In this document: in pieces, positions 19,802 to 36,766 of the stretch | How positions within the stretch are numbered: position 1 is the stretch's first letter | Layout of the letters: each line of letters begins with the position of its first letter | Source: Microbacterium sp. YJN-G | GTDB lineage: Bacteria; Actinomycetota; Actinomycetes; Actinomycetales; Microbacteriaceae | Length of the DNA stretch: 64,000 nt | Assembly: GCF_015040615.1 (NCBI RefSeq) | Contig: NZ_CP060403.1 | Coordinates: 62,001 to 126,000 of the forward strand | Direction: 5' to 3' | Made by a program: the position numbers and the translations under genes | Notes under the pieces: generated by a model | Databases searched by the model: none | What the model was told of the DNA's origin: nothing | What the model saw: only the letters and a program-made list of their open reading frames with translations

Positions 19802-19848
19802 GTGAATGTGACATTCACTACCCTAGGGCCGGTAATCACCCATGTCAA
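19802..19848 (-). promoter_or_regulatory. class I promoter with 17-bp palindromic operator
   Basis: On the minus strand TTGACA (19848-19843), a 17-base spacer and TAGGGT (19825-19820) are followed at once by the perfect palindrome GTGAATGTCACATTCAC (19818-19802), which would cover the transcription start. The layout is that of a repressor-controlled promoter. Confidence 0.85.
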
Positions 19849-19945
19849 TGCATGATGATGATGCCGTCGCAGCATCCCCAGCCACGCCGTGGGCAGGGTG
19901 GGGTGGTATGAGGCGCGAGCGGCCTGGGCGGATACCGTTGGGATC

Positions 19946-22750
19946 GTGCCGAAGTCACTGTCGATGAATGAGATCCGAGCCCGCGCTGCGCAGTTCACCC
20001 GTGACTGGCAGGAAGAGCCCGGTGACGAGCGTCAGCAAGCGCAGTCCTTCGTTCGGGATCTGCTCGGCGTGTACGGGATCACCCAGACCCGTGCGGCGTT
20101 CTATGAGAAGCGCGTCAAGCGCTCATCGACCGGCTCGCGCGGATACATCGACGCGCTGATCCCTGGTCTCGCGCTTATCGAGATGAAGTCGGCCGGCAAG
20201 GATCTCGTCGCCGCCGAGCAGCAGGCGCTCGACTACATCGACGACCTTCCCGACCCGGAGGTTCCTCGGTGGGTCATCACGAGCGACTTCCGCCGGTTCC
20301 GCCTGCTCGATCTCCACGCTGAGAGCGAGAGCGTGCAGGAGTTCACCCTGACCCAGATGCGGGATCGTGCCGACGTGCTGGCCTTCCTCGCCGGGTATGG
20401 TGAGCGCACCTTCGGATCGAAGGCGCAGGAGTCGGCGTCGATCAAAGCGGCGAAGCTGATGGCGTCCCTATACGAGGCCCTCGAGGGGTCTGGGTACGAC
20501 GATCACGAGGCGTCGGTGTTCCTGGTGCGCACCTTGTTCGCCCTCTACGCTGATGACGCCGGAGTGTGGGATCGCGATATGTTCCTCGAGTTTCTCGAGA
20601 CCCGCACGGCGGCGGATGGTTCCGACCTCGGGCCTCAGCTGTCGTTGCTGTACCAGGTAATGGGACGTGAGCCGTCTCGTCGGCAGTCGAACCTCGACGA
20701 GCTAATCTCGCGGTTTCCCTACGTCAACGGCGGGGTTTTTGAGGAATCGGTGTCGATCCCGTCGTTCGATGCCGGCATGCGTGACCGGCTGATCTCGGCG
20801 GCAATGTTCAACTGGTCGGCGATCTCGCCTGCGATCTTCGGCAGCCTCTTCCAAGCCGTCAAAGACAAGACAGCTCGGCGTGAGCTCGGTGAGCACTACA
20901 CGACCGAGACCAACATCATGAAGGTCATCGGCCCGATGTTCCTCGATGAACTGCGGCAGCGGTTCACGGACGGGTATCACGACACCGCCAAGCTCAAGAG
21001 GTTGCGTGCGGACATGGGGCTGATGCGGTTCCTGGATCCTGCGTGCGGCTGCGGCAACTTCCTGGTGGTCGGCTACCGGCAGATGCGAGCGCTCGATCTT
21101 GAGGTTCTGCTGCGGATCCAGGAGTTGTCCGGCGAGACGGCACGCACGATGTTCTTCACCGAGGAGCACCTGGCCGTGCGGCTGTCGAGTTTCCACGGGA
21201 TTGAGCTCGAGGAGTGGCCTGCCCAGATCGCAGCGACGGCGCTGCACCTGGTGGAGCACCAGGCGAACCAGGCGATGGAGCTGGCGCTCGGATCTGCGCC
21301 CGATCCGCTGCCCCTGGACAAGATCAAGAGCATCGTCGTCGGCAACGCGCTGCGCGTCGATTGGGCAACCGTCCTAGAACCGACTGAGCACCTGTACATC
21401 ATGGGTAACCCGCCCTTCCTCGGCCACGCCACCCGCTCGTCAGAGCAAGCGCAGGAGCTGCGCGACGTGTGGCGGCGGGACGACATTGGGCGGCTGGACT
21501 ACGTCACTGGCTGGTATGCGAAGGCGCTCGAGTTGCTCGGCCGTCCGGGCTACCGGGGCGAGTTCGCCTTCGTCTCGACGAACTCGATCGCGCAAGGGGA
21601 GCCGGTGCCGGCGCTCTTCGGCCCTGTGTTCGCCGCAGGGTGGCGCGTCAAGTTCGCGCATCGGACATTCGCCTGGACCAGTGAAGCGCCCGGTGCCGCG
21701 GCAGTGCATTGTTCGGTGATCGGTTTCGACCGGCCGTCGAGGAAGAGGGCGCGGCTGTTTGACTACTCCGGAAATCTCAAGGGCGAGCCCGTCGAAATCC
21801 CCGTGGTGGATCAGCTCAACGGCTACCTGGTCGACGGGCCGATTGTCCTAGTCGACCAGCGCCGAAGCCCACTGGCCTCGGCGCTTCCTCCGATGGTGTT
21901 CGGGAACATGGCTCGTGACGACGGCAACCTCTTGATCGAGCCAGGCGACTACGCGGAGGTCATGGCGGATCCGATCGCCGCGAAGTACGTTCGGCCGTTC
22001 GTCGGCGCCCGGCAGCTCATCCACAACGAGCCCCGGTGGTGTCTGTGGCTCGTCGATCTGGACCCCAGCGACATTGCCCGCTCACCGATGCTCCGCCGGC
22101 GGCTGGATGCCGTGCGCCAGTTCCGCGCAGCATCGAGGGCCGAGTCCACTCGGCAGATGGCGGAGACGCCGCACCTATTCGGTCAAAGGTCGCAGCCCGA
22201 CACGCCCTATGTCTGCGTGCCGCGGCATGCGAGTGAGACCCGCAAGTTCTTCCCGACAGCCCTGTTCACCCCGGATGTGATCTGCGGTGACGCCAACTTC
22301 AAAGCAGATGACCCGGACGGCCTCGCGTTCGCAATGATCTCGTCTTCGGCATTCATCACCTGGCAGCGCACCATCGGAGGCCGCCTCGAGTCTCGTCTGC
22401 GCTTCTCGAGCACCCTGACGTGGAACACCTTCCCGCTGCCTACCATCACCGATTCACAGCGTGCCGCGATCATCGCCGGCGGTCGAGCCGTTCTGGATGC
22501 GAGAGCGCTACGCCCAGAACGCTCGCTCGCAGACCACTACAACCCCCTGGCGATGTCGCCCGAGCTACTCCGTGCCCACCGCGAACTCGACGTTGCTGTC
22601 GACAAGACTCTGGGGCTGCGTGGAGCAGCAACGGAAGCTGACCGGTTGCGAGCGCTGTTCGCCAGCTTCGCGAAGCTCACGACAGCGAATGAGCTCACGA
22701 TGCCGAAGAAGCGTTCCCGTAAGGCGAGAGCCGTGAGCGCGGCGTCGTGA
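19946..22750 (+). CDS. MmeI-like single-chain restriction-modification enzyme
   Basis: A 934-residue type IIL/IIG enzyme, the same size as MmeI. The N-terminal PD-(D/E)xK nuclease shows D69 in RGYIDALIP and E79-x-K81 in IEMKSAGKDL. The methyltransferase domain has motif I DPACGCGNFL near residue 364 and the N6-adenine motif IV NPPF near 488. A target-recognition region follows (about 620-860). One protein cuts and methylates, so no separate methylase is needed. GTG 19946 is preferred because the N terminus then aligns with the MmeI family opening (SxNEIRxRA); no ribosome site is visible. Specificity cannot be read from sequence. All catalytic motifs look intact. Confidence 0.9.
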   Translation: MPKSLSMNEIRARAAQFTRDWQEEPGDERQQAQSFVRDLLGVYGITQTRAAFYEKRVKRSSTGSRGYIDALIPGLALIEMKSAGKDLVAAEQQALDYIDDLPDPEVPRWVITSDFRRFRLLDLHAESESVQEFTLTQMRDRADVLAFLAGYGERTFGSKAQESASIKAAKLMASLYEALEGSGYDDHEASVFLVRTLFALYADDAGVWDRDMFLEFLETRTAADGSDLGPQLSLLYQVMGREPSRRQSNLDELISRFPYVNGGVFEESVSIPSFDAGMRDRLISAAMFNWSAISPAIFGSLFQAVKDKTARRELGEHYTTETNIMKVIGPMFLDELRQRFTDGYHDTAKLKRLRADMGLMRFLDPACGCGNFLVVGYRQMRALDLEVLLRIQELSGETARTMFFTEEHLAVRLSSFHGIELEEWPAQIAATALHLVEHQANQAMELALGSAPDPLPLDKIKSIVVGNALRVDWATVLEPTEHLYIMGNPPFLGHATRSSEQAQELRDVWRRDDIGRLDYVTGWYAKALELLGRPGYRGEFAFVSTNSIAQGEPVPALFGPVFAAGWRVKFAHRTFAWTSEAPGAAAVHCSVIGFDRPSRKRARLFDYSGNLKGEPVEIPVVDQLNGYLVDGPIVLVDQRRSPLASALPPMVFGNMARDDGNLLIEPGDYAEVMADPIAAKYVRPFVGARQLIHNEPRWCLWLVDLDPSDIARSPMLRRRLDAVRQFRAASRAESTRQMAETPHLFGQRSQPDTPYVCVPRHASETRKFFPTALFTPDVICGDANFKADDPDGLAFAMISSSAFITWQRTIGGRLESRLRFSSTLTWNTFPLPTITDSQRAAIIAGGRAVLDARALRPERSLADHYNPLAMSPELLRAHRELDVAVDKTLGLRGAATEADRLRALFASFAKLTTANELTMPKKRSRKARAVSAAS

Positions 22751-23082
22751 ACTGGCCGTACCCGACCGTCCCCGTCGACGGGATCGCGACGGTTGATGAG
22801 GACGGCGAAAATCAGGTCTGCGCTTGCGGCAATGATTCGGCTACCCAGGATTGGCGAAGTGCCGATCGTCACGGGTGCCTTACCTTCGATGCGGCGGGTT
22901 CGTCCGATCCGAACGAGTTCGCGGTGTGCCCGGTGTGCGGCCGCGTGTATCCCAACGCTGCGCTGTTCCAGGGCGCCGCGGCGGCTGTCGCCCGCTATGA
23001 GATCACGAGCGCCAAGTTCGTTGCTGCGCTACAACGGTATGACCACGATGCCTACGGATCCGGCGCGCCGTTGACGAGCTGA
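22747..23082 (+). CDS. small zinc-ribbon protein
   Basis: A 111-residue protein starting at a GTG that overlaps the restriction enzyme stop as GTGA (22747-22750). Two cysteine pairs, CACG near residue 25 and CPVC near 60, could bind one zinc. Its coupling to the MmeI-like gene suggests an accessory role, but no family is recognised. Confidence 0.6.
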   Translation: MNWPYPTVPVDGIATVDEDGENQVCACGNDSATQDWRSADRHGCLTFDAAGSSDPNEFAVCPVCGRVYPNAALFQGAAAAVARYEITSAKFVAALQRYDHDAYGSGAPLTS

Positions 23083-23134
23083 CGGCAGCGGCTCAGCGCG
23101 CGGTTGTCAGTGTGCCAGCATAAGGTTCGCTGTT

Positions 23135-23404
23135 GTGGTGCAGCACTGGTCTCCGATGTCTCAGCTGCAGGCGTCACCGGAGCCGGGGATCTGGTACGTG
23201 TTCGATCACAGTAAGCGGATCGCGATCATCCGCCATGTCGAGATCCGCGGCCGCAGGCTGTTGCGGTCGGTGACGTTTGATCGAGATCCCGATCGGCGAG
23301 TGTTGATCGGCTACTTCCCGGACGATGCGATGCGTCTCGCGGTTGAGTGCACCTGGTCTGAGTATGTGAGGGCGACCGGCCCTCCGGTGAGTAATCGTCG
23401 ATGA
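23135..23404 (+). CDS. hypothetical protein
   Basis: An 89-residue protein containing GIWYVFDHSKRIAIIRHVEI, a compact beta-strand pattern. Start uncertain: GTG at 23135 or ATG at 23156. Probably the third gene of the MmeI-like transcription unit. Confidence 0.45.
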   Translation: MVQHWSPMSQLQASPEPGIWYVFDHSKRIAIIRHVEIRGRRLLRSVTFDRDPDRRVLIGYFPDDAMRLAVECTWSEYVRATGPPVSNRR

Positions 23405-23429
23405 TCGCGTACCGCCGGGGCAAGAGAAA

Positions 23430-23536
23430 CGGCACCCGGCCGGAGCGTGGAAATTGTCACATTCACCAACGATCCAACTGAGGAGGAGCCATCGCCCCGA
23501 GGGGCGGGAGGGAACCTGCTCAACAGCCGGGTGCCG
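23430..23536. repeat. long inverted repeat between convergent genes, with a degenerate operator
   Basis: CGGCACCCGGC (23430-23440) is exactly complementary to 23526-23536, enclosing 85 bases. Inside are a damaged copy of the palindromic operator (23450-23466, 13 of 17 matching), a GAGGAGGAG ribosome-like run with no start codon after it, and a small GCCCCGAGGGGC hairpin. It may be a terminator for the two converging units or a small structured RNA. Confidence 0.5.
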
Positions 23537-23561
23537 CGCTTTAGTGTACCGCGCAGTGCGG

Positions 23562-23837
23562 TCAGAGCGGGGTGGATTGCAGGAGCTCGTCCGCGACTCT
23601 GTCGAGCAGCTGCGGGGTGAGCTGTTCGTGCCGGCCGGCGCGCTTGATGGCGTCGATCGTCGCGAGGATCGTGGTGTGCGCGTCCGGTGCGGCCGGGATG
23701 GTCTTCTGTGCCCGGCGGATGCTGGCGCTGAGCTCGAGGATCGCGGCTTCGTCTCGCTCGTTGTTCGCATAACCGGCGGCAAGCTCGAGCGCCTGGTGCA
23801 GCAGGCGGATCTCGGCGGTGGTCAACGGCGTGGTCAT
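23562..23837 (-). CDS. hypothetical helical protein
   Basis: 91 residues, all-helical by composition (LLHQALELAAGYANNERDEA). ATGA overlap with the upstream gene (23834-23837). Last gene of the class II operon beginning at 25760. Unknown function. Confidence 0.55.
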   Translation of the reverse strand: MTTPLTTAEIRLLHQALELAAGYANNERDEAAILELSASIRRAQKTIPAAPDAHTTILATIDAIKRAGRHEQLTPQLLDRVADELLQSTPL

Positions 23838-24118
23838 CGTGTCCTCATGTTCAGGAGCTCGGCGGTCAGCTGGGCAAAGCGCGCGTCGACGTCGCGCGGG
23901 TCGGCAAGGTCGGCGTCAGGAGCGATGGGGCGGGCGTCGTAGAAGTGATGACGGATGACGCGGCCGCGATCGTCGACGAAACCTGCTCCCTCGCCCTCGA
24001 TCGGGTCGAGGAGGGTGACGACGTCGACCGTGACCTCTCTTGCAGTGCCGCGTTCCCTGATTAGGGTGCGGTCTCCGATGTGCAGCGCGGGCCACGAGGC
24101 GAGCTCGGGGTCGGTCAT
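23834..24118 (-). CDS. hypothetical protein
   Basis: 94 residues with an N-terminal beta-rich half (GDRTLIRERGTAREVTVDVV) and a helical tail. ATGA-type overlaps with both neighbours. Start at 24118 chosen for the overlap and GGAAG upstream. No family recognised. Confidence 0.55.
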   Translation of the reverse strand: MTDPELASWPALHIGDRTLIRERGTAREVTVDVVTLLDPIEGEGAGFVDDRGRVIRHHFYDARPIAPDADLADPRDVDARFAQLTAELLNMRTR

Positions 24119-24357
24119 GGGACTTCCTTCCGTGCGGCGGGGGATGGGCGACGCAATCGTCGAGCGGACTTGAGGATGGGTTCGTTGCGGGGCAGCTTGG
24201 CGAGGAGCCAGTCGTCCCGGACGGCTATGGCGGCGGCGAAGCACGTCATGAGCGTGGGGTGGTGGTGGTTGGCGCATCCGGCGCGGGTCTGGCATCCGAG
24301 GTCGTAGCCCTCGGGGCTGCCGTGGACGATCCTCTTGGCGACCTCGTCGGATAGCAT
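24115..24357 (-). CDS. small Cys/His-motif protein
   Basis: 80 residues containing HGSPEGYDLGCQTRAGCANH, one copy of the HGTxxGYxxGCxxxxxC motif found in several proteins of this window (32310-33605, 43523-43930) and common in actinophage and plasmid genes. Probably a metal-binding or nucleic-acid-associated module. RBS GAGGAGCC upstream. Confidence 0.6.
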   Translation of the reverse strand: MLSDEVAKRIVHGSPEGYDLGCQTRAGCANHHHPTLMTCFAAAIAVRDDWLLAKLPRNEPILKSARRLRRPSPAARKEVP

Positions 24358-24367
24358 CGCCGGCTCC

Positions 24368-24778
24368 TCAGTCGAAGGTGGCGTCGATCAGGAGGTCGAG
24401 CGTGTCGGCGAGCTCGCGGAGACGATAGCTACGTCGGCCGGCGATGACGTGGCCGAACAGATTGACGAAGTGCAGCTCGCGGGTGGCGGTGTCGGCGACA
24501 GCGACGGTATGGACGTCGTGCGCGTCGATGTATTGCCAGCTGATGATGTAGTTGCGGCCGGCGACGTGCGCCTGCGCCCAGCGAAGGAGCAGCGCGCCGA
24601 GCGGGCCCTCTTCGGAGGCGCGGGGCGAGTAGGGGTCTGCCGGCACGATCGCGTCGACGGAATGGAATCCGACTGAGGAGCGGGTGATCTCGTAGCTGTC
24701 GAGCGGGATGTCGGTGAAGAGGTCGTTGTATCGGGTGCCGGTGTCGTCGGTGATGACGATGTTGTTGAGCGTGCTCAT
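24368..24778 (-). CDS. hypothetical protein
   Basis: 136 residues, soluble, with mixed alpha/beta composition (VGFHSVDAIVPADPYSP, then NYIISWQYIDAHDVHTVAVA). Lies 10 bases before the Cys/His-motif gene and 27 bases after the HNH nuclease gene in the same operon. No domain recognised. Confidence 0.55.
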   Translation of the reverse strand: MSTLNNIVITDDTGTRYNDLFTDIPLDSYEITRSSVGFHSVDAIVPADPYSPRASEEGPLGALLLRWAQAHVAGRNYIISWQYIDAHDVHTVAVADTATRELHFVNLFGHVIAGRRSYRLRELADTLDLLIDATFD

Positions 24779-24805
24779 CGGTGTCTGGTCCTCTCGGTGT
24801 GTGGG

Positions 24806-25546
24806 TCAAGCGGCGCAGCTGGTGAGCTGCGCGCGGAGGGCGGTGTAGTCGGCCGGATTGACCGTCAGCTGGTACGCGGCGAGGACGTCGACGAAGCGGG
24901 ATGCGTAGACGCATCCGTAGTCCGCGGCCGGGGGCATCCACTCGGCGGGCCCGCGGTCGCTCTTGGACTGATTGGCGCTGCCGTCCGTGGCCTGCAGGTT
25001 GAGCGGGTCGTTGGCGAAGTGTTCGCGCTGCGTCTCGTCCCATTCGTCGGCGCCCTGGCGCCATACCCAGGCGAGGGGCACGATGTGGTCGATCTGCACG
25101 AGCTCGCTGGTGCCCTGTCCGCGCTGGAAGGTGATCGTGAGCCCGGTGTACGGGTCGTGCAGCGTTCCGGTGAGGACGACGCAGTCGTGGGTGCCGGGCT
25201 TGGTGGTGATGTCCTCGAGCGCGGCCGCGAGCGCATCGTTGCGCTGGTCGCAGCCGTTGCGGTCGATGTCGGCCCAGCGTTGCCCGAAGGCGTCGCGCTG
25301 ATAGGTGTCCTGATTGTCAGCCTCGGCGATGTCCAGCTGCTCGAGCTGCTCGAGGCTCGCGGTGGCTTCTGCCGTGAGGTCAGCCGATGGCGTTGCCGGC
25401 GGTGCGGCGGATGCGGGGGGTGGGGTCTCGATCGTCGCAGCGGGACTGCTGCTGGCGGCCTGCGTGGTGAGGGCGATCGCGCCGGCGAGCAGTGCGACGA
25501 CCAGGGCGCCGGCGGCGGATGCGGTGCGGGTGGTGCGGCGGGTCAT
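24806..25546 (-). CDS. exported HNH (DUF1524-type) nuclease
   Basis: A 246-residue protein with a signal or anchor helix (about 10-30), an Ala/Pro/Thr-rich spacer, and a DUF1524/GmrSD-like HNH domain: QIDHIVPLAWVW near residue 151 supplies the metal-binding D-H pair and the FANDPLNL element the Asn. Exported HNH nucleases of this type are widespread in actinobacteria and act on DNA outside the cytoplasm. Its place in a conjugative module could mean DNA processing in the envelope or attack on neighbouring cells. No immunity gene is recognised next to it, although the small membrane gene just upstream is a candidate. Confidence 0.8.
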   Translation of the reverse strand: MTRRTTRTASAAGALVVALLAGAIALTTQAASSSPAATIETPPPASAAPPATPSADLTAEATASLEQLEQLDIAEADNQDTYQRDAFGQRWADIDRNGCDQRNDALAAALEDITTKPGTHDCVVLTGTLHDPYTGLTITFQRGQGTSELVQIDHIVPLAWVWRQGADEWDETQREHFANDPLNLQATDGSANQSKSDRGPAEWMPPAADYGCVYASRFVDVLAAYQLTVNPADYTALRAQLTSCAA

Positions 25547-25865: not shown

Positions 25866-26741
25866 CTACGCGGCCGTTTCCTGACTCTCCTCGCCGAGCA
25901 TGGCGTCGGCGATCGCGTTGACGGCGCGGAGGACGTTGCCGGCGACGCTGCGGATGAGGTCGACGTCGCCGCCGGCCCATCCCGCGACGTAACCGATCGA
26001 CCACGCGCTGGTGTCGAGTCCGAGGAGTCCACCGGCGCAGTAGGCGACCGACTCGGCCTCGGTCTCGATCACGCCGCGGTGCTCGCGCGTGCTGCCCTCG
26101 TCGAAGTGCAGGAGTGCGTGGCCGATCTCGTGCAGGAGGGTCTTGACTCGCATGGCCGGCGCCATCTTCGCGTCGACGCGGATCTGTCGGGTGAGGCCAT
26201 CGGTGTACCCGTTGAGTCCGTCCTGCTCGATGTCCTCGAGCGCGACGTTCCACCCCTGGCCGGTGATGTAGACGGCGAGCTGGTCGAACAGCCCGGCGAC
26301 GTCGTCTCCCTCGAGGTAGACGGCGGGCTGCTCGGGAAGCGGCTCTCCCTCGGTGTCGGTGACGTCGAAGACGGAGAGTACGGGGTAGATCACCCGGCTG
26401 CTGGTGGACTCCTCGCCGGTGGTCTCGTCGACCTCGACGATGCGCTTGGTGGAGTAGCCGAAGATCTTGATCGACTTCGCGCCCTTGACGACGTGTCGGC
26501 CGAGGCTCTCCCACTGGCGGTAGCCGAGGCAGTAGGTGCCGCCCTGCGCGAGGATGAGCATCTGGTTGGAGAATGAGCGGCGCCGGACAATGCGGGCGAA
26601 CCGCAGCCAGGCCTTCCAGTTCTCGCTCTCGGCGAGTGTGGTGACCTGGGCGGTGAGCTGGGCGTGTAGCGCTTCGGCTTGCGCGCGGCGCTCTTCCGGG
26701 GTGCGCCGGGTGGTGCTGGAACGGCGGGTCTTGGTGGGCAT
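25866..26741 (-). CDS. ardC: ArdC-like anti-restriction protein with ImmA/IrrE peptidase domain
   Basis: 291 residues. The N-terminal ArdC domain (about 25-130; WKAWLRFARIVRRRSFSNQM, then GYRQWESLGRHVVKGAKSI) binds single-stranded DNA, and the C-terminal domain carries the zinc-peptidase motif HEIGH at 204-208 with downstream glutamates near 227-230. ArdC proteins protect incoming conjugative DNA from type I restriction. The start at 26741 follows GGGAGGAC. It is transcribed alone from an operator promoter and ended by a 15-bp hairpin, so its timing is set directly by the module repressor. Confidence 0.85.
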   Translation of the reverse strand: MPTKTRRSSTTRRTPEERRAQAEALHAQLTAQVTTLAESENWKAWLRFARIVRRRSFSNQMLILAQGGTYCLGYRQWESLGRHVVKGAKSIKIFGYSTKRIVEVDETTGEESTSSRVIYPVLSVFDVTDTEGEPLPEQPAVYLEGDDVAGLFDQLAVYITGQGWNVALEDIEQDGLNGYTDGLTRQIRVDAKMAPAMRVKTLLHEIGHALLHFDEGSTREHRGVIETEAESVAYCAGGLLGLDTSAWSIGYVAGWAGGDVDLIRSVAGNVLRAVNAIADAMLGEESQETAA

Positions 26742-26768: not shown

Positions 26769-26816
26769 GTGAATGTGACATTCACTACTCTAAGGGGTGG
26801 GCGGACAATGCGTCAA
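26769..26816 (-). promoter_or_regulatory. class I promoter with palindromic operator (ArdC-like gene)
   Basis: Minus-strand TTGACG (26816-26811), an 18-base spacer to TAGAGT, then the perfect operator GTGAATGTCACATTCAC (26785-26769). Confidence 0.82.
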
Positions 26817-26847: not shown

Positions 26848-27801
26848 TCAGCCCTGCAGAATGTCGGTGGCCGACTTGGGGTACGCGGTGCGAGGCAGCG
26901 TGATCGGTATGCGCCGGCGCTGGGTGCTGCTGCCGAGCGGGAAGGCGTAGCGGAAGTTCCCTGGATGCCTGATCTTGGTGACCTCGAGCGCGGCCAGCGC
27001 CTCGCGTAGCCAGCTCCGGGGGTCTTGGCCGGCTCGTCGGATGGGGGCGCCGAGGGAGACCAGAAATCGCTCCGCGGCATCTGCTCCCCGCTCCTGCCCC
27101 CTGATCTTGGACAGGGAACGCTCGGAGAGCACGACTCCTCGGCGGGCGTAATAGTTCAGCGTGCGTGCGGTGCTGCGTCCGAGGGCAATCGCGGAGCTTG
27201 CCTGGTAGATGGTTCCGACGTGGCCGGGGCTGAGCTGCTCGATGCGGTCAACGGTGGTGCCGTCGTCGAGAGTCTCGGTGATCAGTCGACGACGAGGCAT
27301 GGGATCTGCGAAGGAGACGACACCGCGGATGCCGCGGTCGTAGGCGTGACGGAAGGCGCGGGCGAGAAACCAGGACTCGGCGTTCGCCGGCGTATCTGTG
27401 AGGACGAATCGGCCCAGCTCGATGCTTTGCTCGTAGGGCTCGAGCGTGCTGAACACGGAGGAGAGCACGCCGCGGGTCATGGGAGTGGAGAAGGTGGCGA
27501 CGCCGACGAGAGCCATTCCGTCGACGATGGCTCCGTTGATGGGGAAGCGGTCGTCACGGGTGAGGAGTCCGATCGAGAAGCGTGCCGCGGGGAAGGATGC
27601 GGCGTAGTGCTCCTCGATGACGAACGCTCGCGCGGTGGCCTCGGTGATCGGGGCGACCCGGTACAGCCGGGGATCGAAGCCACCTTCGGAGGCGTGGCGC
27701 CACGAGTGCGAGCCTCGGGACCAGCGCTGGCAGTAGTCGCTCGCGGGGGAGTGGTGCGGCTCGGCCGGCGCGAGTGCCGGCCGAGCTGTCTGGGTGCTCA
27801 T
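26848..27801 (-). CDS. Mom-like DNA modification protein
   Basis: 317 residues with the GNAT-like fold features of the Mom family: the internal core FSIGLLTRDD, GVATFSTPMTRGVL, ELGRFVLTDTPANAESWFL and GVVSFADPMPRR, then HVGTIYQASSAIALGR. Phage Mu Mom converts adenine to N6-carbamoylmethyl-adenine and so shields DNA from restriction; homologues are frequent in actinophages and plasmids. It begins 3 bases after a DUF3846-type gene and shares its operator promoter. Together with the ArdC-like protein it gives the module two independent anti-restriction activities. Target bases of this homologue are unknown. Confidence 0.75.
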   Translation of the reverse strand: MSTQTARPALAPAEPHHSPASDYCQRWSRGSHSWRHASEGGFDPRLYRVAPITEATARAFVIEEHYAASFPAARFSIGLLTRDDRFPINGAIVDGMALVGVATFSTPMTRGVLSSVFSTLEPYEQSIELGRFVLTDTPANAESWFLARAFRHAYDRGIRGVVSFADPMPRRRLITETLDDGTTVDRIEQLSPGHVGTIYQASSAIALGRSTARTLNYYARRGVVLSERSLSKIRGQERGADAAERFLVSLGAPIRRAGQDPRSWLREALAALEVTKIRHPGNFRYAFPLGSSTQRRRIPITLPRTAYPKSATDILQG

Positions 27802-27804: not shown

Positions 27805-28128
27805 TCAGATCTGGGCGGCGATCGCGCGCAGCTGCTCGTCGACGTCGGGGGCGACGTCGGTCCACTCGCCGCTTCTGGCTTGCAGCCCGACGATAAGCGC
27901 GTTGCTGAACAGCAGGGTGCCGCGGCCGTGCTGGGTCAGGTAGAGCGACGCGAGCAGGTTGGGCTCGGTGCTCTTGATGCCCGCATCCTCGTCGACGAGT
28001 AGAGCGTGCCCGTTGGTCAGGCGCAGCTCTGCGATCCACCCGCCGACTTCCTGCTGATAGTCGGCGAGCTCGTCGACGTCGATGGTGCTGACCTCGCCGG
28101 CAGGCGTGATCTTGATGACGGTGGTCAT
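27805..28128 (-). CDS. DUF3846-like small protein
   Basis: 107 residues with the pattern NALIVGLQARSGEWTDVAPD, as in DUF3846 proteins of phages and plasmids. RBS GAGGAGG is well placed before 28128; an upstream ATG inside the operator was rejected. First gene of the unit with the Mom-like gene. Confidence 0.65.
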   Translation of the reverse strand: MTTVIKITPAGEVSTIDVDELADYQQEVGGWIAELRLTNGHALLVDEDAGIKSTEPNLLASLYLTQHGRGTLLFSNALIVGLQARSGEWTDVAPDVDEQLRAIAAQI

Positions 28129-28153: not shown

Positions 28154-28201
28154 GTGAATGTGACATTCACTGATGCTAGGCTGATCGGCGACGCGCGTCA
28201 A
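28154..28201 (-). promoter_or_regulatory. class I promoter with palindromic operator (Mom unit)
   Basis: Minus-strand TTGACG (28201-28196), 17-base spacer, TAGCAT, then the perfect operator GTGAATGTCACATTCAC (28170-28154). Confidence 0.88.
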
Positions 28202-30937: not shown

Positions 30938-31237
30938 TCAGTGGAGGTCGAGTTCGACGCTGTCGGCTTCGAGGTCGGGGATGGTCTGGTCAGGGTGGCT
31001 GAACGTGGCGGCGGGGGCGTGGACGGTGACGCGGTCCCCGCGGTGCGTTGTCAGTCGGAGCAGCTCGGCGAGGGCGCCGTTGGCGTGGACGTTGTAGGGG
31101 CCGGCGTCGGTGTCGACGCGGAACCCTACTCGTGCTCGGCGGTCGGGGAGGCGGCGGACGAAGGTGAGCGGGGTGCGGATGGTTCCTGTGATGGTGACCG
31201 CGGTGCCCGTGGGGGCGGCGGTCTGGGTGATGGTCAT
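30938..31237 (-). CDS. possible OB-fold protein, first gene of operon
   Basis: 99 residues with an alternating strand pattern (ITGTIRTPLTFVRRLPDRRA, then RVGFRVDTDAGPYNVHANG) reminiscent of small OB-fold nucleic-acid-binding proteins; this is inference from pattern only. RBS GAGGAGAAACGCC precedes 31237. The operator palindrome ends 23 bases upstream. Confidence 0.55.
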   Translation of the reverse strand: MTITQTAAPTGTAVTITGTIRTPLTFVRRLPDRRARVGFRVDTDAGPYNVHANGALAELLRLTTHRGDRVTVHAPAATFSHPDQTIPDLEADSVELDLH

Positions 31238-31259: not shown

Positions 31260-31284
31260 GTGAATGTGACATTCACTGACTATA
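31260..31284 (-). promoter_or_regulatory. palindromic operator with TATAGT -10
   Basis: Perfect operator GTGAATGTCACATTCAC (31276-31260) preceded on the minus strand by TATAGT (31284-31279). No good -35 lies 17 bases further up; the class II promoter at 31345-31377 is 60 bases upstream, so this operon may have tandem promoters or a roadblock operator. Confidence 0.7.
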
Positions 31285-31377: not shown

Positions 31378-31401
31378 TCCGGGTTGTGGAGGTCGGTGCG
31401 G

Positions 31402-31842
31402 TCAGTCGTCGGGGCCGCTGTCGGGTTCGTCGCACGCGCCGCTGTTGATGGCGTCGACGCCGACTTTCGTGAGCACCCAGCCGGGTTCGACCCACGAGTA
31501 GCGTTCGATCAGTCCTCGCCTGCGGAGGGACTGGATGGTGCCGCCGGGGATCCCCAGGCCTGTCGTGTCGAGGTAGCTGGCGCCGCCGGAGAGTGATCGG
31601 CCATCGGCGATCATCCGCATGGTGACTCGTTGGGACCAGTTCAGCGGCCGGGCGTTCTGGCGGCGCTTGAGCTCGGTGGTGGCGCATCGCGTGGCGTCGG
31701 CCTCGGTGGTGTGATGGTGGGCGCAGCGCCACACTCGTTCGCCGGACTGGTGGGTGTCTTTGTCGGCGACGTCGTCGATGACGCCGCGCAGCGCGCCTCC
31801 TGGGCGTCCGGGAGTCCATGATGACCAGCTGGCGGTCAGCAT
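31402..31842 (-). CDS. possible winged-helix protein
   Basis: 146 residues. The segment from about 75 to 130 (GIPGGTIQSLRRRGLIERYS, then GWVLTKVGVDAI) has the helix-turn-wing rhythm of MarR-like or replication-type winged helices, so it is a candidate DNA-binding protein and possible module regulator. The N-terminal CAHHHTTEADATRC may bind metal. Overlaps the upstream zinc-ribbon gene. Confidence 0.55.
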   Translation of the reverse strand: MLTASWSSWTPGRPGGALRGVIDDVADKDTHQSGERVWRCAHHHTTEADATRCATTELKRRQNARPLNWSQRVTMRMIADGRSLSGGASYLDTTGLGIPGGTIQSLRRRGLIERYSWVEPGWVLTKVGVDAINSGACDEPDSGPDD

Positions 31843-32027
31843 GCGATCGCCGCGGTCAGCTCGGGGGTGAGGATGCCGGCTTGCTGGTCTGCACGCACGG
31901 CTGCGCCGCAGTCTTTGCAGGTCACGTCGGCGATCGTGGTGGCTGCCGATGACGTCTTGCGTCCGCAGTAGCCGCGTTGCCCTGTGGCGGTGGCAAGGCA
32001 GGTTCGGGCGGTGCTTTCCTGTGTCAT
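31836..32027 (-). CDS. small zinc-ribbon protein
   Basis: 63 residues with Cys residues at TCLAT and GYCGRK, and a CKDC pair. Start at 32027 overlaps the upstream stop as ATGA. Confidence 0.55.
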   Translation of the reverse strand: MTQESTARTCLATATGQRGYCGRKTSSAATTIADVTCKDCGAAVRADQQAGILTPELTAAIAC

Positions 32028-32287
32028 TGGTGGGGCCTGTCCTCGCAGCTCGAGCAGAGGTCGGGGGTGCCGTCGTCGTTGACCCACCAGCAGCCGCCGA
32101 AGCATGCTCGCTCGTCGGTGCAGCCGCAGACGTGACAGGTGCGCACGAGCTCGAGGAGCACCTGGTCGATTCCGCCTTGGGCGCCGAGCTCCGCGCCGAG
32201 CGCGGTGACTCGTGAGATCACGTCCTCGGGTGCGGTGCTGGGCACTTGGATCGTGATGGTGGTGGTAGGTGTGGTGCGGTCGTTCAT
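32024..32287 (-). CDS. small Cys-rich phage-type protein
   Basis: 87 residues. The C terminus holds CHVCGCTDERACFGGC, WW and a final CSSC, a cysteine cluster well known from small phage and plasmid proteins and probably binding zinc. ATGA overlap at its 3' end. Role unknown. Confidence 0.65.
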   Translation of the reverse strand: MNDRTTPTTTITIQVPSTAPEDVISRVTALGAELGAQGGIDQVLLELVRTCHVCGCTDERACFGGCWWVNDDGTPDLCSSCEDRPHQ

Positions 32288-32309
32288 GGTGGCCTTCCTG
32301 ATGTTGGTG

Positions 32310-33605
32310 TCAGGCGGAGCGGGCGAACTTCGTGGCTGCGGTAGTCGGCTGCAGGGCGAGCAGTCGTCGTGCTTTCTCTGCTTCGATCTCGCGGGGCAGC
32401 TCTCCTTTGCGGGTGCCTGAGCGGCCGTAGAGGAGGATCTTCACGCCGGTCTTGGACACCTGTGCCTGGTCGGCGATCTCGAGGACGGTCATGCCGGATG
32501 CCATGAGCTGGCGGACGTGCTGTCGGATCGGCTCGGCGGGCACGCGCGGGGCCTGCGGGGCGATGCCGGCCTCCCGGCGTCGGCGCCGTTCCTCAGCCAG
32601 TGACGCATCGGCGCACGAGATCTCCGCGGGGCAGTGGTCGCGGTCCTTGCAGCCGAGCTGGTAGCCGTAGGCGGTCCCGTGGTGCTCGAGCGGGATGCTC
32701 TGCGCCTTCCGGTTCGCCATCCACTGCCGGTGATACTCGCGGCCGGCTTCGATGCACTCGGGGCGGTCGCAGCCGCGCGCTCGGCATGCGTTGGTGCCGT
32801 GCGGCTGCAGCTGCCTCGGCTGCGAGGTTCGGGCAGCACGCGCGGTCCGAAGTCGCGGTGTGCGTGGCCTGGCCGGTGGGGAAGGGCGATCGTGGTCTGC
32901 GAGGGCGTCGACGGCGGACTGGTGCCGCAGGGTTGCCTCCTGCAGCGCTCTCTCGATCACCCCTCCGACGGAGAGGCCGGTGCCGGCGGCGATGGTGGCC
33001 GTCTTGAGGGTCTCGGCCGCGGCGCGCAGCTGGCCGCGCAGCTCTCGGTGGTCTTTGCGCCACTGCTCGAGCTCGTCGACGTGACGATCGAGGTCCGCTT
33101 CGTAGCCGTCGAGTGCCTCTGAGAACGCGCTGGCGAGCTCTGCGGGGAGCTTCTCGGCGTCGCTGCGTGCCTTGTCGAGCCACTGGTAGCCGGGATGGGT
33201 GCGCGGCCGCGGCGTCGACGGGCGAGGCCGTGCGGTCGGCGCCGGCGCCGGCGCCTCCTTCGGCATGCGCGGGGGTTTGGGTGTGTTGGCGCGCGCCGGC
33301 TTCGGTTTGGGGGTCGGCTTGGGTCGACGGGGGCGTGTGGCTTCGACGGCGGCACGGCGCTCTTCTCGAGCGGCGATCTTGTCCCGTTGCCGCGACTCGG
33401 CACGCGCGGCCTCGTCGCGCTCGAGGATCTCGGCGAGCGGTGTGCCGGCGTCGATGAGCTTCGCGAAGGAGTAGTCGCCCACGTAGCGGGTGTGGACGGT
33501 GCGGCAGGGGATCAGCGCGGGGCACGCGGCAGTGCGGCATCCGTGGCGGTACCCGTCCGGGGTACCGTGCGGGAAGCGGTCGTCGAGGAGATCGAGGGTG
33601 GACAT
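32310..33605 (-). CDS. multi-motif protein with C-terminal helix-turn-helix
   Basis: 431 residues. HGTPDGYRHGCRTAACP near residue 13, HGTNACRARGCDRPECI near 268 and HGTAYGYQLGCKDRDHCP near 308 are three copies of the Cys/His motif. A Pro/Lys/Arg-rich linker and a coiled coil (about 150-240) separate them. The C-terminal segment GMTVLEIADQAQVSKTGVKI is a helix-turn-helix. Such proteins are typical of actinophages. It is the best candidate in the module for a sequence-specific DNA-binding protein and could be the operator-binding factor, but this is untested. Confidence 0.65.
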   Translation of the reverse strand: MSTLDLLDDRFPHGTPDGYRHGCRTAACPALIPCRTVHTRYVGDYSFAKLIDAGTPLAEILERDEAARAESRQRDKIAAREERRAAVEATRPRRPKPTPKPKPARANTPKPPRMPKEAPAPAPTARPRPSTPRPRTHPGYQWLDKARSDAEKLPAELASAFSEALDGYEADLDRHVDELEQWRKDHRELRGQLRAAAETLKTATIAAGTGLSVGGVIERALQEATLRHQSAVDALADHDRPSPPARPRTPRLRTARAARTSQPRQLQPHGTNACRARGCDRPECIEAGREYHRQWMANRKAQSIPLEHHGTAYGYQLGCKDRDHCPAEISCADASLAEERRRRREAGIAPQAPRVPAEPIRQHVRQLMASGMTVLEIADQAQVSKTGVKILLYGRSGTRKGELPREIEAEKARRLLALQPTTAATKFARSA

Positions 33606-33616
33606 GACGGTCGACC

Positions 33617-34078
33617 TCAGTAGCGGAGGAGCTTCGCGGTGACCAGGGTCAACAGTGCTGCCCGCTGCGGGGCGTTGAGCCGTGAGAAGTGCGCACCAAC
33701 GGTGTCTAGCGCCGTGGTGAACTCCTCGGGCAGACCGTCGAGATCCCGCTTGATGCGCCGCTCATTCGCATCCCGCTGCGCCTCCGCTTGATCGGCCACG
33801 CGCCACTCGTCGGTGGCGGCTGTGTCGGCGTATCTGCCGGTGATCCGTGGCGTGTACTGTCCGCCCGTGTAGAGCACGGTCGGCTCGCCGGCGGGGCGGG
33901 TGATCGTGATGATCGCGCCCACCGGAGCCGACGTGTACGGCTTGTACGAGCCGAGCTCCTTGCTGGTGAGCTCACCGTCGTCGAGCGTCCGATACCAGTG
34001 CGCGAGCTTTCCATTACTCGCGGCCTTGCGGCCGACGTAGACGACTTCCTCGGTGACGGTCGCTGCCTCTTCGCTCAT
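33617..34078 (-). CDS. hypothetical protein, first gene of operon
   Basis: 153 residues opening MSEEAATVTEEVVYVGRKAA. The N-terminal half is a compact beta domain; the C-terminal half is helical. RBS GAGGAG before 34078. Directly downstream of a perfect operator promoter. Unknown function. Confidence 0.6.
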   Translation of the reverse strand: MSEEAATVTEEVVYVGRKAASNGKLAHWYRTLDDGELTSKELGSYKPYTSAPVGAIITITRPAGEPTVLYTGGQYTPRITGRYADTAATDEWRVADQAEAQRDANERRIKRDLDGLPEEFTTALDTVGAHFSRLNAPQRAALLTLVTAKLLRY

Positions 34079-34110
34079 TGGGGAGCACTCCTCGGATCAG
34101 TAAGAAAGTA

Positions 34111-34158
34111 GTGAATGTGACATTCACTGATACTAGAGAGGTTGCAGGGTCTTCGCAA
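34111..34158 (-). promoter_or_regulatory. class I promoter with palindromic operator
   Basis: Minus-strand TTGCGA (34158-34153), 17-base spacer, TAGTAT, then perfect GTGAATGTCACATTCAC (34127-34111). The -35 lies inside the 3' end of the 34133-34342 gene. Confidence 0.8.
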
Positions 34159-34342
34159 CCGTCGTCGTCGTCACGTCGACGGGCCGCTCTCGACGCTCGT
34201 TGACGGGAATCATCCGCACGGGCTCGTCGCGGGGAGCTTCGATCTCGAAGCCGCACGCGCCGCAGCTGTGCAGCCCGATCCCGTCGACGTCGTCGGAGGG
34301 GATGTACATGGTGGTCGGCTCTTCGCACATAAGGCAGCGCAT
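34133..34342 (-). CDS. small zinc-finger protein
   Basis: 69 residues with CLMC near residue 3 and CGAC near 28, a four-cysteine zinc site, followed by a charged tail. RBS ACGGAGATCACC. Last gene of the unit begun at 35594. Confidence 0.6.
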   Translation of the reverse strand: MRCLMCEEPTTMYIPSDDVDGIGLHSCGACGFEIEAPRDEPVRMIPVNERRERPVDVTTTTVAKTLQPL

Positions 34343-34362
34343 GGTGATCTCCGTTCGCGTGG

Positions 34363-34827
34363 TCAGGCGCTTGTTGCCGGGGTGATCGGTTGGACGGTGG
34401 CGGAGTAGCCGCGGTGGGAACCCCAGGCGGCGGCGATGCGGTCGGCGACGTCGCGGTCCTCTCCGAGGTACGGGCGGTATCGCTTGCCGCGGGGGTCTGT
34501 GATGACGACCTGGACGACGCCGGATGGCTCGCGCACGGTGACTCTGGCTGCGGGGATCGGATACGCCTGGACGTGGCCGGCGATGATGAAGATCGGGTAC
34601 AGGTCGCGTGCGAGCTCGGGGGTGCGGAACACGTCGTGAACCCATGCCGTGATGGCGAGCGCGCCGGCGGGGCTGAATCCGATGAGTCGTGCGGGGAGCT
34701 GCTCGAGCCCGGCGCGCACGAAGTAGTGCTCGTCGACGAGGATCGGCGTCGGTGGGAGCAGAGACTTCTCGTCGTGGGCGGGGTAGATGGTCAGGCTGGT
34801 GCGGCTGTTCATGAGGCGCTCGTTCAT
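34363..34827 (-). CDS. hypothetical protein
   Basis: 154 residues, beta-rich centre (ALAITAWVHDVF, then YPIFIIAGHVQAYPIP). Starts by ATGA overlap with the zinc-finger/OB-like gene (34824-34827). No family recognised. Confidence 0.55.
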   Translation of the reverse strand: MNERLMNSRTSLTIYPAHDEKSLLPPTPILVDEHYFVRAGLEQLPARLIGFSPAGALAITAWVHDVFRTPELARDLYPIFIIAGHVQAYPIPAARVTVREPSGVVQVVITDPRGKRYRPYLGEDRDVADRIAAAWGSHRGYSATVQPITPATSA

Positions 34828-35594
34828 GCGGTGCGGCGGATGCCGGCGGCGATGATGTGTGCCTTGGTGGGCCGGGAGTAGAAGCCGAAGCTGTCGTCGT
34901 CGTCGGAAGCGGAGACGGTGGCGGTGAACGCGACGACGTCGCCGCGGGCGGCGGTGGAGATCTCGGAGGGCTTGGTGCCCCATACGCGCCAGCCCTCGCC
35001 CTGGACGAGGATCTTGACGGTGATTCCCCACTGAGTGTCGGTGGTCTTGGTCGCGAGGATCTCGCCCTGGATGAGGGTGCGCCCGGTGGGGACCGGGCGG
35101 CGCGCGGCCAGCTCGAGCTCGTACTGCTCGAGCAGCTCGTGGGCGGTGCGGACCTCGTCGTCGTCGAGGGTGCCGGTGTAGTCCTCGAGGGAGTCGAGGA
35201 TGTAGCCGATCTTCTCGCGCAGCGGGTTTCCGTCTCGCATGCTCAGGTGTGCCTCGGTGAGCTGGTCGCGGAGGCCGGGGTGCTCGGCCTCGAAGGCGGC
35301 GCGGCGGGCGGTGATCGCCCGTGTTGTGTCGACGTGCTCGGCGTGTGCCTTCGCGTGGGCTCGTGCGGTGGCGCGGGCGCTGCTGACGAGGCGGCTGCGG
35401 GTGCCGGTGCCGCGGCAGTCGAAGCAGATCGGGCGCCCCTGGCCATCGGTGAAATGTGTCGGCGCGGTGTACAGGCCGGTGCCGATGCACTTGCCGCAGG
35501 TGTCGGTGATCCGCTCGGAGCCCTTGCGGCCGGGGAAGGGGTCGACGTAGAAGTCGTGCCAATCGGCCGGTGCGGTGGTGTCGATGCTGTCCAT
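34824..35594 (-). CDS. DnaJ-type zinc finger protein with possible OB domain
   Basis: 256 residues. TCGKCIGTG (about 32-40) and CFDCRGTGT (about 57-65) form a CxxCxGxG pair like the DnaJ zinc finger. A helical middle follows, and the last 85 residues (GEILATKTTDTQWGITVKIL onwards) are beta-rich, OB-like. RBS GGAGGATCCC. Read from the class II promoter 23 bases upstream. Similar zinc-finger proteins occur in actinophage genomes; the role is unknown. Confidence 0.65.
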   Translation of the reverse strand: MDSIDTTAPADWHDFYVDPFPGRKGSERITDTCGKCIGTGLYTAPTHFTDGQGRPICFDCRGTGTRSRLVSSARATARAHAKAHAEHVDTTRAITARRAAFEAEHPGLRDQLTEAHLSMRDGNPLREKIGYILDSLEDYTGTLDDDEVRTAHELLEQYELELAARRPVPTGRTLIQGEILATKTTDTQWGITVKILVQGEGWRVWGTKPSEISTAARGDVVAFTATVSASDDDDSFGFYSRPTKAHIIAAGIRRTA

Positions 35595-35616
35595 GGGATC
35601 CTCCGGTTCGTCTGTG

Positions 35617-35649
35617 GGTATAGGCCGCGGATCGTTCTCTTCGCGGACA
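35617..35649 (-). promoter_or_regulatory. class II module promoter
   Basis: Minus-strand TGTCCGCGAA (35649-35640), 17-base spacer, TATACC (35622-35617), start codon at 35594. The spacer sequence differs from other copies except for its last GCGGCC. Confidence 0.75.
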
Positions 35650-35662
35650 TGAAGGGGAAGGG

Positions 35663-35695
35663 GCGGGGGCGGCTGTGTCACGGAGCCGCCCCCGC
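35663..35695. terminator. 12-bp hairpin terminator
   Basis: Perfect stem 35663-35674 with 35684-35695 around a 9-base loop, placed just before the class II promoter. It would end transcription from the operator promoter at 35861-35907. Confidence 0.75.
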
Positions 35696-35855
35696 GGCGG
35701 CGACCTGGTTGGGAGGACGGCGGGTCGCCGGGAGGGACATGGCGGCGAGCGCGGCGAGCGCTCGTCAGGCTGCGGTGTGGCGCCTGTCCCTGGGAGGGGA
35801 ACGGCGTTGCGCGGTTCCCCTGGTTGTGGGTCTGTGGGTTCTCCCTCTACTCAGT
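35663..35855 (-). ncRNA. candidate operator-controlled noncoding RNA, about 190 nt
   Basis: A full class I promoter and operator (35861-35907) read leftwards into 190 bases with no plausible gene, then a strong hairpin (35663-35695). A run like a ribosome site (AGAGGGAG) has no start codon after it; the only frame is 20 codons without a ribosome site. A perfect 8-bp stem AGGGGAAC/GTTCCCCT (35795-35802 with 35814-35821) sits in the middle. The unit is therefore best read as a regulated structured RNA, or as a unit that lost its gene. Confidence 0.45.
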
Positions 35856-35860
35856 TAGTA

Positions 35861-35907
35861 GTGAATGTGACATTTACTAGGGTAGGTGTTTCCTGCCCGG
35901 AGGTCAA
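35861..35907 (-). promoter_or_regulatory. class I promoter with palindromic operator (one mismatch)
   Basis: Minus-strand TTGACC (35907-35902), 17-base spacer, TACCCT, then the operator at 35877-35861 with one base changed (GTAAATGTCACATTCAC). Confidence 0.8.
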
Positions 35908-35934
35908 GTGGCGATCTGGCCTGCATCTGCTGGA

Positions 35935-36066
35935 TCAGCTCGCGGGTGCGCGGTCCTCGTCGGCGGGGCCGAGCCCTTCCCAAAGGTCGGGGCGGTTCTC
36001 GTGGATCCAGGCGCAGATGGTGGCCCAGTCCGCGACGCCGGACGGGTGCTGGTTGATGGTTGCCAT
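35935..36066 (-). CDS. 43-residue small protein
   Basis: ATG at 36066 follows a strong CGGGAGGACACC ribosome site and encodes MATINQHPSGVADWATICAW plus 23 residues, ending at TGA 35935-35937. Trp-rich and acidic. It has its own operator (36091-36107), which strongly supports a real gene. Family unknown. Confidence 0.6.
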   Translation of the reverse strand: MATINQHPSGVADWATICAWIHENRPDLWEGLGPADEDRAPAS

Positions 36067-36090
36067 GGTGTCCTCCCGGATCGTCGGCTA

Positions 36091-36113
36091 GTGAATGTGA
36101 CATTCACAGCTTA
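36091..36113 (-). promoter_or_regulatory. palindromic operator with TAAGCT -10
   Basis: Perfect GTGAATGTCACATTCAC (36107-36091) preceded on the minus strand by TAAGCT (36113-36108). The upstream spacer ATGTCCGACCCCCTCCC is shared, with two differences, by the operator promoter at 36744, and both lack a good -35. Confidence 0.75.
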
Positions 36114-36156
36114 GGGAGGGGGTCGGACATCGCTGGGGGACATCGCGAGTGCGTCA

Positions 36157-36187
36157 CTGAGGGCGGCGGAGTTGCCGCCGCCCTCAG
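36157..36187. terminator. 13-bp hairpin terminator
   Basis: Perfect stem 36157-36169 with 36175-36187 and a 5-base loop, starting 7 bases past the stop of the 36194-36439 gene. Confidence 0.8.
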
Positions 36188-36193
36188 CTCGGT

Positions 36194-36439
36194 CTATTGC
36201 ATCTGTCTGGCGATGCCGGCTGCGGCGCTGACGACTCGACGGGGGATGCCGAAGATTTCGGGAGGGCCGGACGCGACGCCGTTGCTCCACACCTTTCCGA
36301 CGCGCCATCCGATGGGGAACCGGAGGGTGGTCGTGGTGTAGGTGGCCCCGGATTCGAGGGGGCCGGCGATCACACCGAGGGGGCTGACCTCGACGTACCA
36401 CCGGCCAACGGTCTTGGAGCCGCCTTCGTGGCCGTTCAT
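36194..36439 (-). CDS. hypothetical protein
   Basis: 81 residues opening MNGHEGGSKTVGRWYVEVSP, beta-rich with a final helix. ATGA overlap with the upstream gene (36436-36439). Ended by a strong terminator. Confidence 0.55.
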   Translation of the reverse strand: MNGHEGGSKTVGRWYVEVSPLGVIAGPLESGATYTTTTLRFPIGWRVGKVWSNGVASGPPEIFGIPRRVVSAAAGIARQMQ

Positions 36440-36723
36440 GCGCCGGCGTTCTCGAGCGGCTGCGCGACGTGTGCCGGCAGGGCGCGTAGCGCGGCGCGGG
36501 TCACCCACTCGTCGGCGGTCTCGTCGAACTGGCCGAGCTCGATGATCGGCCCCTGGTCGTCGTGGTGGATGAACAGCGACCCGTACTCGCGGCCGTCGAC
36601 GTACAGGTAGATGTTCCCGGCGTAGGCGCCGATCTCGCCGTTGTCGAACAGCCCGTCGCGGGCGTCGGGTTCACCCAGGTCGATCTCTTCCTGGCGGTGC
36701 CCGAAGTTGAGGGTGAGCTTCAT
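36436..36723 (-). CDS. hypothetical protein, first gene of two-gene operon
   Basis: 95 residues opening MKLTLNFGHRQEEIDLGEPD, then GNIYLYVDGREYGSLFIHHD, a beta-sandwich-like pattern. RBS CGGAGGACACC. Directly behind an operator. Confidence 0.6.
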   Translation of the reverse strand: MKLTLNFGHRQEEIDLGEPDARDGLFDNGEIGAYAGNIYLYVDGREYGSLFIHHDDQGPIIELGQFDETADEWVTRAALRALPAHVAQPLENAGA

Positions 36724-36743
36724 GGTGTCCTCCGTAGTAGGTG

Positions 36744-36766
36744 GTGAATGTGACATTCATAGGCTA
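36744..36766 (-). promoter_or_regulatory. palindromic operator (one mismatch) with TAGCCT -10
   Basis: Operator at 36760-36744 with one terminal change (ATGAATGTCACATTCAC), preceded on the minus strand by TAGCCT (36766-36761) and the shared spacer ATGTCGGACCCCCACCG. Confidence 0.72.

Follow-up and report, generated by a model that had tools for sequence, protein, structure and literature searches.

Operators of the lambda type are 17 bp long; around a central base, one half follows the consensus and the other departs from it more freely. Work on the 'CUP' element of pKM101 is reportedly to be placed alongside that on the ArdK regulon of R388 and pKM101. ArdK is a KorA-family repressor of 102 amino acids (aa) whose binding sites, at five promoters including that of ardC, are direct repeats adjoining the -35 box (PMC9723621); the promoters that it regulates are linked to early steps after transfer, and the operators vary between plasmids of the family (PMC9723621). 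The stoperators of cluster A mycobacteriophages are numerous, lie mostly in one orientation and follow a lineage consensus that is preferred by the phage's own repressor (PMC6550527, PMC9283540), while the SAS/ESAS sites of cluster K mycobacteriophages, built on the 13-bp asymmetric GGGATAGGAGCCC, have a suggested role in translation initiation (PMC3203893). In this study, a repeated operator-like site was analyzed in a 64,000-nucleotide (nt) stretch of Microbacterium sp. YJN-G (the window), which corresponds to C2:62001-126000. The genome consists of two contigs, the 148,596-bp plasmid contig C2 and the chromosome C1; positions without a contig prefix are those of the window.

The repeats are probably the operators of one plasmid-wide repressor regulon that would be private to each plasmid lineage, as judged from sequence comparison. 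The site GTGAATGTGACATTCAC was found at all of the window coordinates named in the initial annotation, which had correctly placed six exact copies (19802, 26769, 28154, 31260, 34111 and 36091), two copies with one change (35861 and 36744) and a damaged copy with three mismatches (23450). When the pattern GTGAATGTNACATTCAC was searched with up to two mismatches, eight matches were counted in the window, compared with a mean of 0.00 in 100 shuffles, none of which reached eight. The same search of the whole genome gave 24 matches, 23 on C2 and one, with two mismatches, on C1, versus one for the reversed control pattern. The set of 24 C2 sites used below consists of these 23 and of C2:139475, which has three mismatches; two other three-mismatch matches on C2 were excluded: the damaged copy at 23450 and a match at C2:24088, which falls inside a called gene in the pilus region. 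All 24 operators have the same orientation and directly follow a -10 box, and two further copies of the half CACATTCAC have no -10 box in front of them by the same test. Palindromes at random positions in the replicon, named beforehand as the outcome that would contradict a regulon, were searched for and not seen. The copies in the window are as follows.

19802-19818, minus strand: operator GTGAATGTCACATTCAC, exact; TTGACA-N17-TAGGGT; unit of gene 19264-19779 and the DUF3560 gene
26769-26785, minus strand: operator, exact; TTGACG-N18-TAGAGT; ArdC-like gene
28154-28170, minus strand: operator, exact; TTGACG-N17-TAGCAT; unit of the DUF3846 and Mom-like genes
31260-31276, minus strand: operator, exact; weak -35 box, TTCCCC-N17-TATAGT; unit of a 99-aa gene
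34111-34127, minus strand: operator, exact; weak -35 box, TTGCGA-N17-TAGTAT; unit of a 153-aa gene
35861-35877, minus strand: operator variant GTAAATGTCACATTCAC, one change; TTGACC-N17-TACCCT; long leader before 34824-35594
36091-36107, minus strand: operator, exact; class-2 promoter (ATGTCCGA-N9-TAAGCT); 43-aa gene
36744-36760, minus strand: operator variant ATGAATGTCACATTCAC, one change; class-2 promoter (ATGTCGGA-N9-TAGCCT); 95-aa gene
23450-23466, plus strand: degenerate copy, three mismatches; only the downstream half GTCACATTCAC is intact

Placement relative to genes was assessed with a simple purpose-written gene caller, a gene being counted as first of a unit after a gap of at least 40 nt or a divergent neighbour. 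Two islands, C2:79800-98800 and C2:136900-148596, together contain 47 minus-strand genes, and an operator lies within 300 nt upstream of 23 of the 30 first-of-unit genes as against none of the 17 internal genes. Outside the islands, none of 63 minus-strand genes has an operator within 100 nt, genes starting below C2:4000, where the operator of the OpR gene described below is located, being excluded from this count. On C2, 23 genes have their operator within 75 nt, and in these the start codon follows the operator end at a distance of 17-32 nt. Judged by position, no operator stands in front of the replication, pilus, transfer-like and primase genes on C2. The operator is a shared site at promoters and is nearly absent elsewhere. 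The single-repressor regulon proposed in the initial annotation is upheld in that one operator occurs at many promoters, almost all of them in two islands of a single replicon, but its extent has to be revised: the 24 sites reach far beyond 19802-36766, and related plasmids have other operators.

The operator is a 17-bp pseudo-palindrome. Read towards the gene, the 24 C2 sites contain 14 substitutions in the upstream half and none in the downstream half, and the central base is C in all 24. The initial description of the site as a palindrome has to be qualified: the gene-side half is invariant, the half next to the -10 box is variable and the site is locked in orientation. Sites with a GTCA core on other plasmids show upstream and downstream changes of 5 versus 1, 10 versus 2, 16 versus 3 and 1 versus 0; without the GTCA filter the distinct variants total 38 versus 10 (binomial p ~6e-5, ignoring relatedness). 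Since the downstream half is far less variable, the site is described as a pseudo-palindrome with a dominant half. An isolated downstream half GTCACATTCAC on the plus strand also adjoins a parA-like gene at C2:31107 and at NZ_CP064874.1:17375.

The operators begin 0-2 bp past the -10 box, a position in which a bound protein would overlie the probable transcription start and so prevent initiation. Seven of the 24 promoters are sigma-70-like, some with a weak -35 box, and 17 belong to a second class in which ATGTCNGA, in some cases inexact, lies 9 bp before the -10 box. Within the window, a TTGACN box 17-18 bp from TANNNT was found at four of the eight sites (19802, 26769, 28154 and 35861) rather than at five, as had been proposed. 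A genome-wide search with a strict class-2 pattern gave 15 exact matches, each of which is on C2 and adjoins an operator. The class-2 element ATGTCNGA lies at 36091-36783 and C2:137307-148250. Because it recurs on other plasmids despite their differing operators, it is considered to be a promoter element in its own right, which a plasmid-encoded activator may perhaps bind. Another repeated promoter on C2, TGTCCGCGAA-N-GGCCTATAC, comprises ten GGCCTATAC sites, one of them with TGTCTGCGAA; it is located at 14965, 25788, 29746, 31346, 35618 and 36835 and elsewhere on C2, in several cases before transfer-like, pilus and FtsK-like genes, and at least three of the GGCCTATAC sites adjoin operator promoters. 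The copy at 35618 lies between the operator at 35861 and the gene 34824-35594, which starts 267 nt downstream of that operator. The intervening 267-nt leader (35595-35860) contains an inverted repeat.

The genes behind the window operators, all on the minus strand, are given below.

19264-19779, minus strand: gene of 171 aa that opens the DUF3560 unit; no Pfam family
18314-19267, minus strand: DUF3560 protein (PF12083, E=2.7e-14)
25866-26741, minus strand: ArdC-like protein (ArdcN, E=2e-8; Peptidase_M78, E=5.2e-6)
27805-28128, minus strand: DUF3846 protein, encoded at the head of the Mom-like unit
26848-27801, minus strand: Mom-like protein (PF25680, E=8.7e-21)
30938-31237, minus strand: 99-aa gene behind the 31260 operator; no Pfam or PHROG family
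33617-34078, minus strand: 153-aa gene behind the 34111 operator; no Pfam or PHROG family
34824-35594, minus strand: 256-aa gene, 35861 operator 267 nt upstream; no Pfam family
35935-36066, minus strand: 43-aa gene behind the 36091 operator
36436-36723, minus strand: 95-aa gene behind the 36744 operator; no Pfam family

As had been proposed, the ArdC-like, Mom-like (DUF3846) and DUF3560 units each have an operator positioned in the promoter start region. The other operator-first proteins of the window that were scanned, the five of 171, 99, 153, 256 and 95 aa, matched no Pfam family. The regulon would comprise most accessory units of the two islands, including the ArdC-like, Mom-like and DUF3560 genes.

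Operators of other plasmids were sought by testing k-mers in the regions upstream of called genes for excess over a Markov null. Of 198 genomes of the genus, 22 match the C2 site at up to one mismatch, with at least ten matches only in the source genome of the window (G000), G109 and G187; among 398 sampled genomes of the family (nine of the genus), the exact operator was found only in G000. Plasmid G075:C11 carries 15 copies of the variant ATGAATGTCAGATTCAC and one degenerate copy. The k-mer test gave a multi-copy site GTGTATGTCAGATACAC on G121:C2 (13 listed), GTAGGTGTCAAGTCAAC on G121:C3 (nine behind a -10 box) and GTAAGTGTCAGGTCTAC on Curtobacterium pC1c (four behind a -10 box). These four related plasmids have different operators at the same place with a common central GTCA. 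Across plasmids with differing operators there are 479 reciprocal best pairs; both members carry an operator in 36, and 34 of these show each gene with the operator of its own plasmid, the other two being ties at one G075 gene; the 36 pairs share genes and are not 36 independent events. Relatives of the 19264-19779 product on G075, G121:C2, G121:C3 and pC1c each stand behind the operator of their own plasmid. The operators have thus diverged in sequence, and as part of the explanation favoured here this divergence would probably give each plasmid lineage a private switch. Operators without a nearby start codon, as at 35861, also occur on G121:C2 (127299) and G121:C3 (4746), and G121:C2 has eight GGCCTATAT sites, the counterpart of the GGCCTATAC promoter. 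On pXCEL01 (L106-L110), GCACCTTCCTG is repeated upstream of many genes and is a different regulon-like motif.

In our reading, the regulon functions in the manner of known plasmid repressor regulons but involves an unnamed protein family and a different operator and layout. It resembles the ArdK regulon in that several promoters, including one of ardC type (the operator at 26769 precedes the ArdcN gene 25866-26741), fall under one operator with a plasmid helix-turn-helix (HTH) repressor, here a candidate, and in that operators differ among related plasmids (PMC9723621). Unlike the ArdK regulon, C2 is an actinobacterial plasmid with 24 sites, and its inverted repeat follows the -10 box, in place of a direct repeat at the -35 box. 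The sites share with stoperators their number, their predominant orientation and a lineage-distinct consensus (PMC6550527); however, stoperators block elongation along the phage genome, whereas the C2 sites are pseudo-palindromic and all 24 follow the -10 box of a plasmid promoter. Like SAS, the operator is a short repeat, mostly in one orientation, that closely precedes the starts of some of the genes (PMC3203893), but it differs in sequence and sits behind a -10 box, while SAS is found at translation starts. The operator string was not found in the literature covered by a limited search. Its 17 bp, central base and dominant half recall the layout of lambda operators, with which it shares no sequence. 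By analogy with R388, where ArdK represses the promoter of ardC together with four others tied to early post-transfer steps, the working model is that a resident repressor would keep these genes low, and that entry into a repressor-free cell would switch them on.

The candidate repressor, OpR, is encoded outside the window at a locus with the following genes.

C2:3161-3871: OpR, HTH protein of 236 aa; operator in front at C2:3889
C2:3968-4396: HTH protein labelled here excisionase/MerR-like, beside OpR
C2:4554-5129: Tpg-like HTH protein (Tpg model, E=1.4e-4, under the curated cut-off)

A further neighbour is a Tap/primase-like protein of 1673 aa (E=6.9e-36 to the Tap model, under the curated cut-off), and the OpR gene stands beside this Tap/Tpg-like (telomere-type) replication module. 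OpR has no named family. A structure model based on 14 sequences (mean predicted local distance difference test score 74.5, predicted template-modelling score 0.72) has an N-terminal HTH with middling matches and a C-terminal part without an assignment. Relatives were found in seven of the 198 genus genomes, in 29 actinobacterial plasmid records (23 from Rhodococcus) and at 22 loci in a genome collection; the positions on G121:C2 and G121:C3 agree with NZ_CP012698.1 and NZ_CP012699.1, both from Microbacterium sp. No. 7. A perfect operator occurs shortly before C2-type OpR genes (77-97% identity) in all five distinct loci read besides C2 (L117, L118, L119, L121 and L122), where L120 and L123 share the upstream sequence of L119, and L121 is taken to be the G187 contig and is therefore already known. 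On G075 and G121:C2, an operator precedes the unit that contains OpR. Mismatches of the operator to that of C2 number zero at 78% OpR identity, two at 60%, three at 53%, seven at 32% (G121:C3) and six at 29% (pC1c), a trend that any backbone gene might show in similar form. On balance, OpR would be the protein that binds the operator and, as the operator lies directly before its gene, it is probably autoregulated.

Several observations weigh against this assignment. OpR has no match in the record NZ_CP064874.1, which carries operator arrays, and G109 (83% complete, 14 sites) is not among the seven OpR genomes; both the record and the genome may be incomplete. No operator of this layout was obtained from the OpR-bearing pAL1, G040:C11 and 120 kb of pBD2, where the k-mer test gave only CGTCGACGA on G040:C11 (5 versus a null maximum of 4) and CGCCCGCCGTC on pBD2 (3 versus 2). 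The OpR recognition helix is largely conserved although the operators differ, the strict divergence trend is broken by pC1c (six mismatches at 29% as against seven at 32% on G121:C3), and two further HTH genes accompany OpR and would be expected to co-diverge with the operators in the same way.

These two genes lead to the strongest alternative, itself fairly unlikely, in which the regulon is the same but is repressed by one of their products, the excisionase/MerR-like or the Tpg-like HTH protein. Both adjoin OpR in C2-type, G075 and G121:C2-type loci, the operator on G075 and G121:C2 precedes a unit holding the excisionase-like gene as well as OpR, and the HTH of the excisionase-like protein (PHROG 66, E=3.4e-6 for the L117 copy) differs between plasmids with different operators. 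In C2-type loci, however, the perfect operator lies between the excisionase-like gene and OpR, directly before the latter, and the site before the excisionase-like gene is without the invariant downstream half. The C2 copy of the excisionase-like protein also has a sub-threshold DNA polymerase A match, and the Tpg-like protein a sub-threshold terminal protein match. Before the excisionase-like gene of L117-L119, a second site, GTGAATGTCACGC-N9-GCGTGAC, joins the operator upstream half to another inverted repeat; near versions of it occur in L121 and L122.

It is improbable that a chromosomal regulator of the host, such as the TetR-family protein at C1:3340300-3340923, binds the plasmid operator. 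The site TAGTGAACGTCACGTTCACTA at C1:3337825 (L059), a perfect palindrome that differs from the plasmid site at two symmetrical positions, lies immediately upstream of a PPDK/PEP-utiliser gene, which the TetR gene follows; there is, however, only this single chromosomal match, and one host factor does not explain why other Microbacterium plasmids, and even two replicons of one genome (G121), differ in their operators.

A role as single-stranded-DNA promoters of the Frpo/ssi kind used in transfer is very unlikely. All C2 copies share one orientation, and, as in descriptions of Frpo/ssi leading regions (PMC11541004), anti-restriction-like genes in one orientation accompany a relaxase gene, here one encoding a TrwC-type relaxase with a helicase domain (3877-7410; PF08751, E=7.3e-88). 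An operator hairpin was obtained at all eight sites folded (DNA fold z -0.94 to -4.12), with a stem extending towards the -10 box at class-2 sites. Unlike at Frpo/ssi promoters (PMC11541004), ordinary -35 and -10 boxes precede the class-1 sites and no shared fold pairing the -35 region was seen across the eight sites; moreover, the G121:C3 and pC1c consensus is self-complementary at only four of eight positions. Least probable of all is that the invariant half acts without a repressor in the mRNA 5' leader, on translation or stability: it does lie, locked in orientation, in a probably transcribed leader, but conservation extends to the upstream half, which is complementary to it, tnsA upstream regions have the operator in both orientations, and no Rfam match at E<=0.5 was obtained in window 17000-38000.

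These tnsA regions belong to transposons that carry plasmid operators. In ten single-match loci of other genomes (L032-L036, L038-L040, L043 and L045), the operator lies between tnsA and a small divergent HTH gene; the tnsA product was TnsA-like (NF033179 above cut-off) in all three cases tested. In 24 TnsA loci (L139-L162; 18 after removal of near-identical ones), chosen by protein search regardless of the motif, a C2-type operator with up to two mismatches was found upstream of tnsA in 18 of 24 (13 of 18 distinct), and the 15-nt downstream half of the G121:C2 operator, at the same tolerance, in 14 of 24 (9 of 18 distinct). The same regions gave no matches to reversed controls, to the G121:C3 and pC1c downstream parts or to 60 shuffles of the 15-mer. 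A profile of the small transposon HTH family found no match on either C2 or NZ_CP064874.1, and E=0.034 to one NZ_CP064874.1 frame from two single small-HTH queries was taken as chance. At least two TnsA-element contigs exceed 3 Mb and are thus chromosomal. Tentatively, the transposase promoter region of actinobacterial TnsA-like transposons may have been placed under the repressor operators of at least two plasmid lineages, so that plasmid entry or residence would gate transposition.

Two further observations were made. The related M. paraoxydans plasmid record, the best plasmid match, is typed by MOB-suite as non-mobilizable yet has an annotated MobF relaxase. Gene 19964-22750 contains all five MmeI-type (type IIL) restriction-modification domains and is divergent from the DUF3560 unit, with the 19802 operator between them.

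The regulon offers a testable case of a large accessory gene set under one plasmid switch, together with a candidate repressor family from 29 actinobacterial plasmid records. Plasmids A and B of Microbacterium sp. No. 7, two replicons of one strain with different switches before homologous genes, illustrate how such switches diverge, and the operator motif points to likely establishment genes among proteins that belong to no known family. If the link to the transposons holds, one mobile element would be reading the repressor of another.

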